DNA of 64,000 nucleotides from Brachypterus glaber (lineage: Eukaryota; Arthropoda; Insecta; Coleoptera; Kateretidae), in contig OY294044.1 of assembly GCA_958510825.1 (NCBI GenBank), forward strand, positions 68,552,357-68,616,356. Direction: 5' to 3'. The notes under the pieces are model-generated. The model made no database searches. It had not been told where the DNA came from and saw only the letters and a program-made list of their open reading frames with translations. A program made the translations under genes and the position numbers. Shown here piece by piece: positions 2,690 to 63,712 of the stretch (positions within the stretch are counted from its first letter, which is position 1; every line of letters starts with the position of its first letter).

Positions 2690-3181
2690 GTGTGCAGAAG
2701 CCTTGGAAGAGTTAGCAAGGACCAAAAACGTTCAACTGGTATGGGTACCGGGTCATAGGTGTTACAAGGAAGCAAGTAAAGACCGCTCTTGATGAGTGGC
2801 CTTATACCAAGCTAAAGGAGCAATGGAGGGCGGTCGACGGTTGCCGGCAAGCTAGGTACTTCCTGGCTGGCTCAAGCAAATCAAAGACCGACTGGTTGCT
2901 GAAGAACTGCACTCAGACAACTTGTAGGGGTCCTCATGGGCCACTGCAAGCTAAGGAAGCACCTGGCAACAATGCGGATTCTAGAGAGTCCGCTATGCCC
3001 AGAGTGCGGAGAGGATGAAACATCCTCTCATTACTTAGCCGAGTGTGTCAGATACGACAGGATCAGGTTGCAAGTCTTTGAAACTCAAAGACTCAACCAA
3101 GAGGAACTAAGAGATCTCCCCTGGGCCAATATCCTGACCTTTATTGAAAGGACGGGCAGGTTCAAGGACGACTCAAATTAG
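2690..3181 (+). pseudogene. LINE ORF2 3' end: RNase H and CCHC-like tail
   Basis: Conceptual translation gives an RNase H segment reading QLVWVPGH near 2735-2760, followed after frame changes by a C-terminal domain: 2936-3181 encodes GHCKLRKHLATM, then CPECGEDETSSHYLAEC, a cysteine-histidine motif near residues 22-35. This is typical of the end of ORF2 in R1/Jockey-related non-LTR retrotransposons. The normal GNExAD catalytic stretch after WVPGH is lost, the 5' part (endonuclease, RT) is absent, and at least one frameshift separates the pieces, so it is a dead, 5'-truncated copy. The 3' flank to about 3245 (GGGCCTGTTGTCCGGC) is probably its 3' UTR. Confidence 0.8.
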
Positions 3182-4397: not shown

Positions 4398-4575
4398 TTT
4401 TGATTTATCAAAACTCCAATATGAGAATGGTTCTTAATCACAGTTATTATATTATTCACAGCGCCTGCGGTAGAATAATATTCTATGGTAATTTCCAATA
4501 TTCAAAAAAAAAAAATTAATTCAAAAATCGTCCTATTATCTGTGTCTGAATTACACTGCAGTGACTCATTTTAGA

Positions 4576-5145
4576 AAACTAAATTAAATTGTTTGATATT
4601 TACAAATTTAAAAGATCTATATAAAACATTTTACTATTCCTTAAAACGACTTTTGTTTGATTAACGCAGTCGTCCCTCCGAAGTGACTGATCGATTTCGT
4701 GCTTTTTAGCACTCTTCAGAGCCACATATCGGTAGTAGGGACAACTACGAAAATCAAATCCTTTCCATATATCTCTATATAGAGTTTAAAAATCGTTATA
4801 AGGAAAAGCAAAAACAGCTAGCGACATCTACTGCTAAAAGCAGGGACTGGATAAACCTATCGACAGTCCAAAAAAGGAAGCAGTTATTGGTTTCAAGAAC
4901 CTATTGCACGCTGTCGATAGGGGGCAGATTAATCAATGCCACGGTGGACATTGCCGCCAATTGAATCCTAAACGCTAGGAGGTCACCTTTTACAGTGGTA
5001 TCTGAATTAATAAACTAAATTAAATTGTTTGATATTTACAAATTTAAAAGATCTATATAAAACATTTTACTATTCCTTAAAACGACTTTTGTTTGATTAA
5101 CGCAGTCGTCCCTCCGAAGTGACTGATCGATTTCGTGCTTTTTAG
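4576..5145 (-). mobile_element. Retrozyme-like tandem unit (1.3 x 436 bp)
   Basis: A 134-bp segment occurs twice, apparently identically, at 4576-4709 and 5012-5145, giving a 436-bp period and a total of about 1.3 monomers. No protein frame is present. On the minus strand the complete monomer carries a type I hammerhead ribozyme (4674-4739); the second copy stops inside helix II, so only its 3' half remains. TTTTAGAAA occurs at both borders (4569-4577 and 5140-5148) and could be a 9-bp target duplication. Animal retrozymes are known as hammerhead-bearing, protein-less units spread through circular RNA, probably by Penelope-like enzymes; this assignment is an inference from architecture. A plain tandem duplication is the alternative. 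Confidence 0.6.
4674..4739 (-). ncRNA. Type I hammerhead ribozyme
   Basis: Read on the minus strand: helix I 5' strand GUGGCU, core CUGAAGA (fits CUGANGA), helix II GUGCU-AAAA-AGCAC, core GAAA, tiny self-complementary helix III AUCGAU, cleavage triplet AUC, then AGUCAC, which pairs with GUGGCU over 6 bp (one G-U). Beyond an internal loop, CCGA (4729-4732) pairs with UCGG (4678-4681), and CCCU/AGGG can add an outer helix. All invariant core positions are present. The predicted cut lies between plus-strand bases 4689 and 4688. Very short, palindromic helix III is known from animal hammerheads thought to act as dimers. Confidence 0.75.
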
Positions 5146-5621
5146 AAAGTATGCTAAAAAGCGAGGATCATACCAATTCGGGTACGGTTCGCATAACTCG
5201 GTCTGAGGGGCATCCCTTATACGTCCGTCCGTCCATCTGTTTTTTCAATAATTTTTCGTTTTTTAAAAAAGATCTTTTTTTTAATGTATTTTTTTTAAGT
5301 GTTTGGGAAATGTAATATACCATTTTAAATGTAATACACAGTAATACTGTGAATAATATATAATGGAATACGTAGCATTGCATATCGGCTTGTTTAAGAA
5401 TAAATCTATTTCCGTTTCATAATATTTTTAATATGACACTGAAATCAGTTTCATAATAAACTTAATTAAAGACTTTTTCTTGGGTAACGGTGAATACCAA
5501 AAGAAAATCTACTTAGTCCATAGACGATTGTCCACAGATTTTCATAATAACTCAGGAACCTATTGGAACTATTTAAATTAATTTTAATCCGTGATATACG
5601 TTATATTTTGGTTCGTATAGT

Positions 5622-13427: not shown

Positions 13428-13486
13428 GTCTCGGTAGCTCAGTTGGTAGAGTACCAGGGGACTCTGGTTCGAATCCAGACTGAGAC
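13428..13486 (+). ncRNA. tRNA-like Pol III unit lacking anticodon arm
   Basis: The acceptor strands GTCTCGG and CTGAGAC pair over 7 bp with one G-T. The D arm is GCTC-AGTTGGTA-GAGT. The T arm is TCTGG-TTCGAAT-CCAGA, 5 bp. The A box TAGCTCAGTTGG and B box GGTTCGAATCC fit Pol III consensus, and a T7 run (about 13492-13498) six bases downstream fits a Pol III terminator. Only 10 nt (ACCAGGGGAC) lie between D and T arms, where a normal tRNA has 22-23, so the anticodon arm is missing and no CCA is encoded. It is either a tRNA pseudogene with an internal deletion, a SINE head, or an expressed tRNA-like RNA. It cannot decode. Confidence 0.65.
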
Positions 13487-13491
13487 CTGAC

Positions 13492-13766: not shown

Positions 13767-14896
13767 TTATACGTACAGAATTTTGTTATATACTAGCGCA
13801 TGCGCAAATATAATTACAAATTAGAAAAAACAGCCTTGTCAACAGAACGTATCTGTGGATACATTAAGAAGAAAAAGAAGACTGGGTATGGAATTATCCA
13901 GACCACTTCACCAAGTGACCCAATCTTCTAGAATAATATAAATACAAATTTATATTCAGCTTGCCAAATTCTATGAAAAGACCATTGATTTAAAGAAGAA
14001 GAAGAAGAAAAAGAATCATACTCCGTACTATAACAAGATGAACACTTCCTGAGAAAAAATAAAATTATCTAGAAAAAAGGTTTTTGTTTCAAAAACCACT
14101 CATTTATTATTAAGTGGCTAATTGAGTGGATATAGTCCGGAGTAGGGTTATTCGGGAGTAGGGATGTTATGAAAGATGTCGAATATGGTGTTTCTCCCAA
14201 ACGAGGCAAAAGTATTCCTGCAATTTGGTTTAATAATACACCAGGATGTGGCTAACAACGGACTGAAAATATCTCCAAGGGCACTCTCTAGATGCACAGG
14301 TGCACATAAACCACAAATGATATTTTTAGAACGGAAAAAGGACCAAAATAAAAAATTGCTACATCGCAAAATCTGTTTTTAAATTGAAAATGATTTTGTA
14401 TTATTTACTTTGTTTCCGATGATTTCAGTATCGAAAAATATGAAGCGTTTGGGTCAAATATTTGAACATCGAATTCTATGAATTTTTGGAAAGCCGAAAA
14501 AACTGTTACCCGTAAGAAATCAACTACCTACTTACATAAATTTTTAAAGACATAGATGAAACTAAATAAATATATTTTAATGAAAATTAAATAATACTAC
14601 CAAAAAGGCGATAAACCTAGATTTTACAGCACAAAAATATAAAAATTATTTTATCCACTGCCTATTAATCACGGGTCTGTGAAGATAAACCGTTTAAAAC
14701 CGAAACGGCCGTTGATAAAGTATGGTATTCTACTCGCGTATAATATCTATTAATCATTTGGATGATTAGGCCACTCGCCTGTCGGCTCGTGTCCCAAAAT
14801 TCATCCTCACTGATTAATATCAATTATTATACGCTCGTTGAATAATATACTATTATTCCACTATTTAATTTTGTATTCATATGCATTCATTAAATA
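13767..14896. other. Stretch without recognised gene
   Basis: A (GAA)n-like run at 13993-14013 may mark the 3' tail of a LINE or SINE. Overlapping 68- and 73-codon frames at 14148-14382 on opposite strands have no recognised motif. Otherwise nothing was identified. Confidence 0.45.
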
Positions 14897-15407
14897 ACAA
14901 GCCGTGAAGATATGTAATCCTACGCATTAAATTATATATTATTCACAGTAAATGGTATATTGCATTTTTCCAAATATTAAAAAATTATAAAAAAAATAAA
15001 AAAAAAGATCTTTTTTTGAAAAACGGCACTGGATTTTTTTTTTTTTAATTTTTTCAAAAAATTTAATTTTTTTTTGTTTTTTTTTTTGAGAAAAACGATT
15101 TTTTTTTTTTTAATTATAGTTTTTATTTTATTTTTGTTTTTGGGGAGATTACTTTGAAAAACAATAGTGAACTTGATTTTTTCTGAAAATTATTATATAT
15201 AATTCGTTCTGGAGTTATCGTGTCTACAAAAATCGTGACTTCGGACAGTCGGACGGACGGACAGACGGCCATTTTCAGTTTCTTATTTTTTCATGAAACA
15301 TATATGTATCCAAGAATTTTTTGTCTAGGACGTTTTTTGTCGATTTTGGAAAACCTCGAAACTACCGTATAATATATTCTAGCGCAGGCGCGGTGAATAA
15401 TATAATA
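14897..15407 (+). mobile_element. Dispersed repeat F1, copy b
   Basis: Begins ACAAGCCGTGAAGATATGTA and contains TATATTATTCACAGTAAATG, the CGGACGGACGGACAGACGG motif at about 15249, and ends with TTCTAGCGCAGGCGCGGTGAA then TAATATAATA. The same order of motifs is seen at 62998-63712. The internal TTATTCACAG and CTGTGAATAATA-type ends suggest a foldback transposon. A/T homopolymers fill 14985-15140. Confidence 0.65.
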
Positions 15408-15709
15408 AGCAAGAAGCTCGACGTTGCGCTTATCGCACAACCAAAGCATTACAGTGAATTAGTTTAAATACATTTACCCCGGTCCCTGCTTATAAATAGT
15501 AAGGTTATTATTTACCGGGGCTCCCAAAAAATTAAATAAAAAAAAAACAATTTTACATGTTGTTTAGGCTCTACTTATAGGCTTAGTTAAGCATCCCCTA
15601 AGTGCAGGACTTGTGTCGACTTTAACTGTCTCGAACCAGATTTTAGGAGGGTAGTAAGTAGGCACTACTACAACTCGACGCTGCTTTACATAGTAAGTCA
15701 TTTACATCA
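15408..15709. other. Possible upstream LINE remnant
   Basis: Likely upstream continuation of the LINE relic that is recognisable from 15710, but translation is too decayed to assign. Confidence 0.35.
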
Positions 15710-16852: not shown

Positions 16853-17190
16853 TATACCCGCCTCAGGGTACTAGTCAAACATTATAATTAAATAAAAATG
16901 AAATGTTATCTTTAGATATACGAAGAAAAAATATATCTTTCCCGTTTTTATTTAATCTTCTGCACAATAAAATCGATTGCGAATATTTATTAAGTAAAAT
17001 AAATTTTCTGGTACTACGTGGAAATTTAAGATATACCGAAACATTTTCAAAAAGTCAGGCTAGAACAAATCTCATGTTTAAATCGCCGATTTATATTATG
17101 TGCAATAATTTCAATTTATTAAATAACCAAAATATTGATATCAACTTTAGTAAATTAAAACAATATAAAGAACTTTCACTTTCGGGTTTA
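16853..17190 (+). pseudogene. Jockey/CR1-type LINE RT, part 2
   Basis: Resumes with YPPQGTSQTL, a stop, then MLSLDIRRKNISFPFLFNLL and IDCEYLLSKINFLVLRGNLR, then RTNLMFKSPI. This order (YPPRG, L..LSL..RR...FLFKL, ID...LL..INF.VP.R, RTN...SPI) is the C-terminal end of Jockey/CR1 RT proteins. It is in frame with part 1 before the TE insertion and, downstream, with the Penelope-like sequence that starts around 17190-17220. Confidence 0.7.
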
Positions 17191-18261
17191 GACCGTGTTA
17201 ATGGATTTTCACTTTCCGACGCAATGGGATCCCCATTATCACCCCCTGCGGCCAATGCTTTCATGGAATACTTCGAGAAAAAAGCTATTGAGTCATTTCC
17301 ATTAAAACCTAAAATTTGGCGCAGATACGTAGACGATGTCTATGCTATTTGGCCCCATGGTATGGAAAGCCTTCAAGGTTTTCTAAATCACCTCAATTCC
17401 CAACATAAATCTATACGGTTTACGATGGAAATTGAGAACAACGGATCACTTCCCTTTTTGGACGTTTTGGTTTACAAAACGGAAAATGGCTCAATAGGAC
17501 ACTCGGTATACAGGAAGAAAACCCACACTGACAGATACCTAAACGCATTTTCACATCACCATCCCTCTCAAAAACGCTCGGTAGTTAATTCACTTGTTCA
17601 TAGGGCTTTCATGATTTCAGACAAGAATTCCCTAGACACAGAACTCCTTAAACTAACCAAAGCCTTGACCATGAACGGTTATACCAAAAAAGACATTAAT
17701 AAGACCATATACAAATACAGAAATCCCAGACCCAAACAACAGGACAATAGTGACAATGACAGACAGACACAAGTTATACTTCCCTATGTAAGCGGTATCA
17801 CGGATAAAATAGGTAAACTTTTGAAGAAGTCAAATATTAAGCCTATATTTTGGTCCAACCAAAAATTAGGTCAATGTTTGACTTCAACAAAAGACAAAAT
17901 ACCCCTGAGTTCAGAAGGCGTATATAAAATACCCTGCTCCTGTGGTACGGTTTACATAGGTGAAACTAAGAGAAAAATTTCTACAAGATTTCAAGAGCAT
18001 GAGCGCAATATAAGAAAGAAACAAATTTCCTTATCGGCAGTAGCCGAACATGTACATGAAACAGGTCATAAAATCAATTTTTCTGAAACAAAACAAATAT
18101 TAACAGAAAACAGAAAAATGCCAAGGAAGATACGGGAATCGATAGAAATCATCAAGCATCCTAACAATATCAATCGGGACACTGGTTACCACTTACCTGC
18201 AATATGGAAGTCTTTGATAGGAAAAACCTCGTCACGGGTGAATAACCACAACTCGTCATAA
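16903..18261 (+). CDS. Chimeric ORF: LINE RT tail fused to Penelope-like RT/GIY-YIG
   Basis: A 452-codon open frame. Residues 1 to about 85-105 are the C-terminus of a Jockey/CR1-type RT (FLFNLL, IDCEYLLSKINF, RTNLMFKSPI). From about residue 107 it is the C-terminal half of a Penelope-like retroelement protein: AMGSPLSP (107-114), RYVDDVYAIW (141-150, catalytic YVDD), LPFLDVLVY (183-191), then a GIY-YIG endonuclease at about 337-440 with GVYKIPCSCG and YIGETKRK and the downstream RFQEHERN. RT motifs before AMGSPLSP are missing, so this is a 5'-truncated Penelope copy that landed in frame in a LINE relic. The frame has stayed open, but no promoter is evident and the start is just the first ATG after a stop. 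It is unlikely to be a working enzyme. Whether it is expressed is unknown. Confidence 0.85.
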   Translation: MLSLDIRRKNISFPFLFNLLHNKIDCEYLLSKINFLVLRGNLRYTETFSKSQARTNLMFKSPIYIMCNNFNLLNNQNIDINFSKLKQYKELSLSGLDRVNGFSLSDAMGSPLSPPAANAFMEYFEKKAIESFPLKPKIWRRYVDDVYAIWPHGMESLQGFLNHLNSQHKSIRFTMEIENNGSLPFLDVLVYKTENGSIGHSVYRKKTHTDRYLNAFSHHHPSQKRSVVNSLVHRAFMISDKNSLDTELLKLTKALTMNGYTKKDINKTIYKYRNPRPKQQDNSDNDRQTQVILPYVSGITDKIGKLLKKSNIKPIFWSNQKLGQCLTSTKDKIPLSSEGVYKIPCSCGTVYIGETKRKISTRFQEHERNIRKKQISLSAVAEHVHETGHKINFSETKQILTENRKMPRKIRESIEIIKHPNNINRDTGYHLPAIWKSLIGKTSSRVNNHNSS

Positions 18262-18564
18262 ATAGTGACACAAGTTGATTCGAAACTTAGTTTCAGATTA
18301 ATCCCTGAAGATGTCTCTAGTAGTAAGAGACGAAACGTCGGAAAGTGAAAATCCATTAACACGGTCTAAACCCGAAACTGAAAGTTCTTTATATCTTAAT
18401 GGCCGTGAAAGCTTAAAATCTAAAATTAAAACAAATTCTTATCTTAGAAAATTTAATTGTAGATTAAATAAAGTTATTAAGTATATGTATAGTATTATAG
18501 ATTTATATATGTTTATACACTTTGTCCTGTAAATGGTGTATTCTGTTGGACAATAAAGCAAAGT
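18262..18564 (+). mobile_element. 3' region of the Penelope-like element
   Basis: Follows the stop of the GIY-YIG ORF and contains the hammerhead-like motif at 18296-18353 and an AATAAAG polyadenylation-type signal near 18550. The 73-codon frame 18311-18532 crosses the ribozyme motif and is not taken as a gene. The exact 3' border is not clear; no target duplication was found. Confidence 0.6.
18296..18353 (+). ncRNA. Hammerhead-like motif of the Penelope element
   Basis: Core CTGAAGA (18305-18311), stem II GTCTC/GAGAC with a 9-nt loop, core GAAA (18332-18335), self-complementary ACGU stem III and GUC cleavage triplet (18337-18339). Helix I: TCC (18302-18304) pairs with GGA (18340-18342), then an internal loop, then GATT (18296) with AATC (18350). 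One extra U between CTGAAGA and stem II departs from the minimal consensus, so activity is uncertain. Hammerhead motifs are established features of Penelope-like elements. Confidence 0.6.
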
Positions 18565-20094: not shown

Positions 20095-20245
20095 GTATAC
20101 TATTCTCCGTGTCTGAAATAGCACGCAGTGACTAATACCTAAAACGTTTTATGTCGCTCTCGTATAAGGGATTCCCCCCAGACGGAGTTACGCGAACCGC
20201 ACCCGAATTGGTATGTTCCTCGCCTTTTAGCACACTTAGCAATTT
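20095..20245. repeat. Dispersed repeat shared with 4535-5225
   Basis: The first part (CCGTGTCTGAAATAGCAC... CAGTGACT) matches 4540-4570. The second part (GGAGTTACGCGAACCGCACC, GAATTGGTATG) is the inverse of 5160-5225. Not coding. Confidence 0.6.
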
Positions 20246-62605: not shown

Positions 62606-62997
62606 GACTTGACAGACCCCTTAGTAACACGTGGTTTCGAATGTTTATATACTTTAAAAATTAGTTTCTTAACATTATAATTTTCGTGAGTAATGAATAC
62701 TTCAAATCCAGTAATAATAATTGATATAGAAACTCTAATTAATTATTCCAATAAGCACATAAGTTACCTTGTATTGGAATAATAAACTGGAGGAAGGAAT
62801 CTAAAATCGATTGCTGAAATACGAGGTTGAGAAAGTAACATGGCGATATCTATGTCTAAAAGTTGCTGACTTACATAAGAATCAAACTTAGGACTGTAAA
62901 AAATATTTCCTGCAATTTAATTACCAGCTATCAGTAGGTCCCAGAATTTTAAAAGAAATTGCAAAATTTTGCCGAATTTCGTACCGTAATTTAAAAA

Positions 62998-63712
62998 CAA
63001 GCCGTGAAGATATGTAATTCTACGCATTCCATTATATATTATTCACAGTAAATGCTATATTGTGTTTTCCCAAATACTAAAAAACAATAAATTTTCAAAA
63101 AAAAAAAAATAAATAAAAAAAAGATCTTTTTTGAAAAACGAAAAATTATTGAAAACAAAAATTTTTTTCAAAAAAACTAAACTTTTTTTTTAAATTATTT
63201 AATTATTAAATTTTCTTTTTGCGAGAAACGAAAGAAAAAATAAAAAAAAAATCTAAAAAAACTTTCAAAGTTTTTTATTTTTTTTATTTTTATTTATTTA
63301 TTTATTTTTTTGTAGAATTGAACCTTATAATAAAAGTAATTTTTCCTGAAAAAAATACGTTAATCGGAATTTTATTTCTTCATTTTTCGATTTTTCATAA
63401 AGTTTAACTCCCCATAACTTTTTTGTTTTTGGGGGAATTACTTTTAAAAACAATAGGGATCTTACCCTCATAGAACTTGATTTTTCCTAAAAGTTTCAAG
63501 TCGATGGGATTATTCGTTCTCGAGTTATCGTGTCTAAAAAAATTCTGACATCGGACAGACGAACGGACGAATGGACAGACGGACATTTAAATAAAAAGTT
63601 GCTTATTTTTTCATCAAACAAATTTATAACCAGGACAATTTTTGTAAATTTTTGAAAATTCGAAACTTCCGTATATTATTCTAGCGCAGGCGCTGTGAAT
63701 AATATAATAATA
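62998..63712 (+). mobile_element. Dispersed repeat F1, copy c
   Basis: Starts ACAAGCCGTGAAGATATGTA, then TTATATATTATTCACAGTAA; later GGACAGACGAACGGACGAAT; ends TATTCTAGCGCAGGCGCTGT then GAATAATATAATAA. Same order as 14897-15407. ORFs here (63219, 63404) are repeat translations. Confidence 0.65.

Follow-up and report, generated by a model that had tools for sequence, protein, structure and literature searches.

The window, by which we mean the whole 64-kb stretch of Brachypterus glaber DNA analysed here, carries an insert that is very probably a non-autonomous retrozyme: circles made by its ribozyme would be reverse-transcribed by the host's Penelope-like elements (PLEs), on both strands of the target and from two fixed start sites. 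Several components of this account are established at the level of sequence: the repeat and its hammerhead core, near-identical arrays that are dispersed and flanked by target duplications, arms joined head-to-head with outer ends at two positions, and a matching anatomy in the PLEs of this genome; that a PLE enzyme mobilises the retrozyme is the likely reading of them. Coordinates are collected in Table 1.

Table 1. Features of the window that bear on the retrozyme and on the PLE.
Feature	Position	Strand	Remarks
Host repeat (F1), MITE-like	4444-5395	+	inverted ends of 14 bp (4448-4461 / 5347-5360); broken up in the vicinity of the insert
Left target site duplication, TTTTAGAAA	4569-4577		last 2 bases also match the element
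Retrozyme insert, one-armed, 1.31 units of 436 bp	4576-5145	-	strand is RNA sense; same locus as L142
Terminal repeat, copy 1, 134 bp	4576-4709	-	134/134 identical to 5012-5145
Type I hammerhead with outer helix	4667-4737	-	Rfam HH9, 28.4 bits, below gathering score
Minimal ribozyme	4683-4725	-	helix I, CUGAAGA (from 4719), helix II, GAAA, palindromic AUCGAU helix III
Complete 436-nt monomer, predicted cut to predicted cut	4689-5124	-	predicted circular RNA; 36.9% GC
Two inferred reverse-transcription start sites	5011-5054	-	sense ~114 (5011) and ~71 (5054), 43 nt apart; insert ends mapped at 40 loci
Terminal repeat, copy 2, 134 bp	5012-5145	-	breakpoint within helix II of second ribozyme
Right target site duplication, TTTTAGAAA	5140-5148		first 6 bases also match the element
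Open frame, PLE reverse transcriptase and GIY-YIG endonuclease	16888-18258	+	PLE part from near 17220; motifs by eye
PLE target duplication, 12 bp	17152-17163 / 18423-18434		overlaps the last 4 bases of the element
Penelope-like element, 5'-truncated, two-armed	17164-18426	+	inverted arm of 59 bp at 17163-17221, a copy of 18336-18394
Minimal PLE-type hammerhead-like motif, CUGAAGAU...GACGAAACGUC/GG	18305-18345	+	by eye, no Rfam scoring

The insert and its predicted ribozyme

The original prediction of a retrozyme-like element held that a 134-bp segment recurs without mismatch at a distance of 436 bp, that no protein is encoded, and that the second, partial copy of the ribozyme breaks off within helix II. 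All of this proved accurate: the two copies agree throughout at a period of 436, no stop-to-stop frame of at least 90 codons (the threshold of the frame listing) overlaps the insert, and the break falls at sense position 416 of 436, where position 1 of the monomer is the base directly after the predicted cut. The proposed target duplication TTTTAGAAA is likewise present at both borders as a maximal 9-bp match, equalled by 3 of 4000 random flank pairs; six of its nine bases at the right border and two at the left also match the element, so that the duplication overlaps microhomology. The placing of the insert inside an F1 repeat stood in part. The flanks 4444-4517 and 5242-5395 do match two other repeats of the window, but there is no clean F1 copy, and 5147-5223 matches a different repeat (20161-20237), which puts the insert within a nest of repeats.

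The surroundings of the insert show some further structure. A MITE-like repeat family with the common ends TTATTATATTATTCAC...GTGAATAATATATAAT occurs at 14896-15408, 62995-63710 and 4444-5395. The repeat at 5147-5223 and 20161-20237 is 77 bp long, inverted and 90% identical, and starts 2 bases past the right border of the retrozyme; that border is itself spanned by a perfect 9-bp hairpin (GCTTTTTAG / CTAAAAAGC, 5137-5162), half flank and half element. Beside the left border is a 12-nt near match (11/12) between 4542-4553 and 4998-5009, at an offset of 456 rather than 436, which is perhaps due to chance or perhaps the remnant of an older copy.

On its minus strand the monomer contains the complete core of a type I hammerhead, as had been proposed: CUGAAGA, the helix II hairpin GUGCU-AAAA-AGCAC, GAAA, and AUC followed across the predicted cut by AGUCAC, all read directly, with a helix I of 6 bp (GUGGCU/AGUCAC) and an outer helix. 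The cut is predicted between plus-strand bases 4689 and 4688, 3' of the last C in UCGAUC. The covariance-model check named with the prediction gave a match: the best Rfam match in 4560-5160 is Hammerhead_HH9 at 28.4 bits (E 5.6e-5 over 601 bases), though this is below the gathering score of 52, which is why a scan of the 64 kb at gathering scores returned no hammerhead and a tRNA as its only entry. (A tRNA-like gene or tRNA-derived repeat, its middle part shortened, lies at 13428-13487; Rfam, 44.4 bits.) A descriptor calling for the full core, a helix I of at least 4 bp and a helix II of at least 3 bp finds a single site in the window, that of the insert; it finds two in 200 random windows, and none there with helix II of at least 5 bp and helix I of at least 6.

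Helix III consists of a single A-U pair and a palindromic tetraloop (A-UCGA-U). In the predicted fold of the circular monomer, helices I and II have pairing probabilities of at least 0.9, and U407-A409 of the core are paired with U431-G433 (0.78-0.86); such pairing, if it forms in the circle, would keep the core masked as long as no second copy pairs with it. Striking as the rod-like fold of the whole circle is (-128 kcal/mol against -88.2 +/- 5.4 for 100 shuffles), we place no weight on it: the window is rich in palindromes, and a lower z is found for 5 of 60 random stretches of it.

Relatives were sought by exact-pattern scans, which found none in genome_contigs and, with the longer patterns, none in viral_contigs; a looser pattern matched 94 viral contigs, none of which passed the helix filter. 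Four diverged relatives of the retrozyme are present in the same genome (L171-L174), with the ribozyme at about 1490-1560 of each and matched stretches of at least 39 nt that are 73-95% identical. Their cores read CUGAUGA, and helix I has an A-U pair where the 436-bp family has G-U. The core is kept in all four, but as they were found via the ribozyme model they form a ribozyme-selected sample that is uninformative on conservation.

Dispersed copies and the position of their ends

A search of the host genome (648 Mb, 842 contigs) with the 570-bp element gave 955 first-look candidates, of which the 40 top-scoring loci were scored, and all 40 retrieved. They comprise 125 matches, mostly 97-100% identical apart from a few short pieces at 87-94%. 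Every one of the 40 holds a direct arm of 1.31-6.76 units (the largest, at L106, split in two pieces) that is 97.6-100% identical to the window's monomer. The monomer thus recurs in tandem as the original prediction had anticipated, in dispersed arrays of 1.3 to 6.8 units, and not as a single local duplication or as a satellite without ribozyme conservation: the core is intact in 85 of the 87 complete units, and each locus has at least one unit bounded by two intact cut sites. The ribozyme region has few mutations, yet it does not stand out: 34 of 436 sliding windows are as low when events are counted and 41 of 436 when units are. The repeats at the 40 loci are tandem units, not LTRs. With a type I core and its helices I and II, a non-coding unit of 436 bp and 36.9% GC, dispersal, and target duplications at 35 of 40 loci, the family carries these marks of a metazoan non-LTR retrozyme.

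In 35 of the 40 inserts a second, inverted arm of 48 to 624 bp is joined head-to-head to the direct arm at its sense 5' side; the other five, the window copy (L142) with L104, L106, L107 and L128, are one-armed and count against the explanation that we favour. The meeting points of the arms are scattered, from 19 to 418 on the direct arm (starts of one-armed inserts included). The outer ends cluster in two bins. On a first pass, 3' ends of direct arms lay at 105-130 in 29 inserts, at 60-82 in eight and elsewhere in three (37/40 in the bins), and outer ends of inverted arms at 60-82 in 17, at 105-130 in 11 and elsewhere in seven (28/35). Position 113 is also where the query stops, so that ends there could have been favoured when the loci were chosen; loci with a direct arm long enough to free its 3' end from the query were accordingly checked apart: of 24 such ends, 14 are near 114, eight near 71 and two elsewhere.

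Considered insert by insert, the first pass gave 24 two-armed inserts with one end at each site, one with both ends near 114, none with both near 71, and ten with a stray end. Target duplications of at least 8 bp were found on this pass at 24 of 40 loci, compared with a rate of 3.0% among 466 flank swaps. Most of them, 20 of the 24, measure 12-14 bp, and the composition is 87% A+T. The 16 loci lacking such a duplication were re-read for the longest common stretch near both ends. Eleven have a duplication of 12-15 bp, a length (12 bp or more) reached in 2 of 157 swapped pairs, and corrected ends at 67-73 and 109-115; the other five (L115, L120, L128, L133, L140) show 6-9 bp, often reached by swaps. 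Duplications, mostly of 12-14 bp, are thereby present at 35 of 40 loci. With eight of the ten stray inserts now falling in the bins, 32 of the 35 two-armed inserts have one end near 71 and the other near 114, the exceptions being L120, L133 and L140. The predicted fold of the retrozyme brings the two sites face to face within a single helix, with base pairs 70:114 and 71:113 at a probability of 0.78-0.79.

Penelope-like elements of the same genome

The window also contains a two-armed PLE. Its frame carries, by eye, the motifs YVDD and GIY-YIG, which we take to mark a reverse transcriptase and an endonuclease; Pfam gave no match on the frame, and NCBIfam a weak one to Drt2 only. Its assignment to the PLEs follows from these motifs and from its homologues, of which there are 2097: among the 120 listed, most combine PF00078 with PF26215 and a few also have PF01541, and the named homologues that match best come from insects, those from lizard, lamprey and sea star ranking below them. 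A genome search gave 5575 first-look candidates for the family, 116 of them scored at 98-100% identity, which suggests that it has probably been mobile in the host genome recently. At one locus (L159, 3317-4025) a PLE copy adjoins an array in which hammerhead-tail fragments alternate between direct and inverted orientation.

Insert ends were sought in a sample of 20 retrieved copies plus the window's own, using the tail of the window's PLE as probe. Eleven of these 21 were resolved as two-armed (ten retrieved copies and that of the window), their outer ends being hand-picked from the probe hits; the probe runs out of PLE sequence near position 86, so that an end at that point must be backed by the duplication. 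In all 11, the predicted PLE hammerhead cut is followed at 53-61 nt by one end and at 85-88 nt by the other; all 11 also have duplications of 12-16 bp, where 110 swaps reach 7 bp at most. The start sites are thus about 32 nt apart in this PLE, compared with 43 nt in the retrozyme, a spacing slightly above that of described PLEs.

The likeness is one of anatomy. Start-site sequences of PLE and retrozyme show no detectable resemblance, 22.65% of 2000 random pieces scoring as high, and the two elements share no significant sequence overall: their best scores were 25 and 31, and shuffled sequences reached up to 30. The same fold analysis found no pairing of start sites in the PLE like that of 70:114 and 71:113 in the retrozyme. 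Nor is the retrozyme a member of the PLE family: its unit has no frame of at least 90 codons, and so neither reverse transcriptase nor GIY-YIG.

Proposed route of insertion and comparison with known systems

Since PLE and retrozyme have the same insertion anatomy, the simplest account is that both strands of the cut target serve PLE protein as primers on the retrozyme circle. Retrozyme RNA would cleave itself into monomers, probably aided by the pairing of two copies through the palindrome AUCGAU, a help that we propose because helix III of a single copy is so short, and a host RNA ligase would close the monomers into rings. The target would be cut with a stagger of about 12 bp and each of its strands would prime once on the same circle, one at about 71 and one at about 114; rolling-circle copying could then yield the 1.3 to 6.8 units of the direct arm, and the two cDNAs would be joined at their meeting point.

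Comparison of units bears on the nature of the template. Among the 87 complete units of the 40 loci there are 2.12 differences per 436 within arrays (83 pairs) and 3.58 between arrays, a contrast that is modest because all loci are very similar; permuting the labels of the units gave 3.56 +/- 0.23, with none of 2000 permutations as low as 2.12. Each of the 28 inverted arms of at least 100 bp was also set against the arrays, at most three units being used per array. For 25 of them no array is closer than their own (with many ties; 0 of 5000 random pairings were as close), the exceptions being those of L114, L126 and L136, to which other arrays are closer. A circle, as the one template of each insert that gives the array and both arms, explains these data best; a long uncut transcript of a homogeneous array is a less likely source.

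That the template is such an uncut multimer instead of a circle, with a ribozyme of little role in movement, nevertheless has some claim to attention, improbable as we judge it. In vitro, a PLE inserted RNA whose hammerhead was dead, and unprocessed RNA was its main substrate (PMC11167929); in the retrozyme, helix III is weak and the core is partly hidden in the predicted circle. On the other side, higher likeness within than between arrays, modest as it is, and the match of both arms to their own array are what a monomeric template predicts, and the core has stayed intact in all but two of 87 units.

Should the enzyme be a LINE-type reverse transcriptase, the inverted arms would be products of twin priming; we regard this as decidedly unlikely. 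Twin priming by LINEs does yield inverted arms, but such an arm begins at a scattered internal position, whereas here its outer end fell in one of two bins in 28 of 35 cases even on the first pass, and the two ends of an insert are complementary in their use of sites (32/35 after re-reading), just as in 11 of 11 PLE copies. A LINE-like fragment may lie at 2716-3181 (weak zinc-finger match, E 0.018), for which a homologue search found none, and 15-bp duplications of Nematostella repeats have been likened to LINE movement by earlier authors (PMC4918200). Unequal crossing-over could also spread a common satellite, or a local tandem duplication, that bears a ribozyme motif by chance. This would fit the tandem arrays, and hammerhead repeats were long described as satellite DNA (PMC2837043), but it is scarcely credible for arrays that are short and dispersed, have fixed ends and are flanked by target duplications, and no chance ribozyme with such long helices occurs in 200 random windows.

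Priming by PLE protein on a retrozyme circle therefore remains our preferred reading. It leads to a more general proposal, towards which we lean with some reserve: animal retrozymes would be parasites of PLEs, whose enzymes, acting as a pair, would load a single circle made by the ribozyme and prime it simultaneously from both target strands, one per site, the two rolling-circle cDNAs meeting head-to-head. If this is true, the strict rule of one site per end, seen in retrozyme and PLE alike, would also show how PLEs themselves insert. The rule makes the model of two-strand PLE priming testable in any genome with young copies, and the anatomy of the inserts (ends at two sites, head-to-head arms, similar lengths of duplication) links retrozyme and PLE directly within one genome. 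The enzyme that mobilises animal retrozymes is left open in PMC7229834, where PLEs are a strong candidate because they occur in the same genomes, likewise carry type I hammerheads and likewise form tandem copies; a 2022 guide has retrozymes possibly relying on PLEs, and a 2024 review names LINEs or PLEs. As far as our search reached, mostly outside subscription journals, no earlier report was found of an insertion anatomy tying retrozyme to PLE or of the one-site-per-end rule, and both appear to be new.

Metazoan non-LTR retrozymes, as described by Cervera and de la Pena (2020, PMC7229834), have type I hammerheads in tandem repeats of 150-450 bp with GC below 50%, are non-coding, show target duplications of more than 4 bp when these are present, and share their genomes with PLEs. 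The element described here resembles them in all these respects: type I hammerhead, tandem organisation, low GC, lack of coding, duplications and accompanying PLEs. At 436 nt it is slightly longer than their RNAs of ~170-400 nt. Its helix III, of one pair and a palindromic tetraloop, has the form given there for amphibians, in which the hammerhead cleaves better as a dimer, but occurs here in an insect host; for Aedes, too, a loop III that is palindromic has been reported (PMC3088659). The present inserts have head-to-head arms and two start sites that are used as a pair, neither of which figures in the portions of the metazoan retrozyme description cited.

The non-coding tandem repeats of Dolichopoda (pDo500), Schistosoma (W-elements) and newts (PMC2837043, PMC8490949; newt, PMC7229834) are comparable; those of pDo500 and newt have type I hammerheads, and cleavage as double hammerheads has been proposed or shown. 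Unlike these, the 40 copies examined here are short inserts at dispersed sites; target duplications flank 35 of them, and 35 have an inverted arm. The LTR retrozymes of plants share a proposed life cycle through circular RNA, but differ in having type III hammerheads, LTRs of ~350 bp, a PBS and PPT, and 4-bp duplications (PMC4918200, PMC7761336).

As to the PLEs, a purified protein from a lizard was shown to cut AT-rich targets on both strands and to extend both; synthesis starts at two internal sites next to each other, which explains the genomic tail (PMC11167929). Two results of that work count against steps proposed here: use of start sites was the same on both strands, against one site per strand, and hammerhead mutants were still inserted, against a need for the ribozyme. 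In PMC3846280 a PLE is described with an inverted pLTR, an optional tail on one pLTR and a duplication of 9 bp, and with a gene that it captured and moved between its pLTRs; duplications in a rotifer are 8-10 bp (PMC11167929 / PMC3846280). The hammerhead-like PLE motif of the window resembles that of the lizard PLE in having an ATG that overlaps stem II. The retrozyme departs from PLEs in coding for nothing, in its length of 436 nt, in its canonical rather than minimal hammerhead and in a tail of 43 nt against about 32; it shares with GIY-YIG PLEs (PMC11167929, PMC3846280) two internal start sites that give an optional tail, an inverted arm, partial tandems, AT-rich targets and a hammerhead upstream of the start sites.
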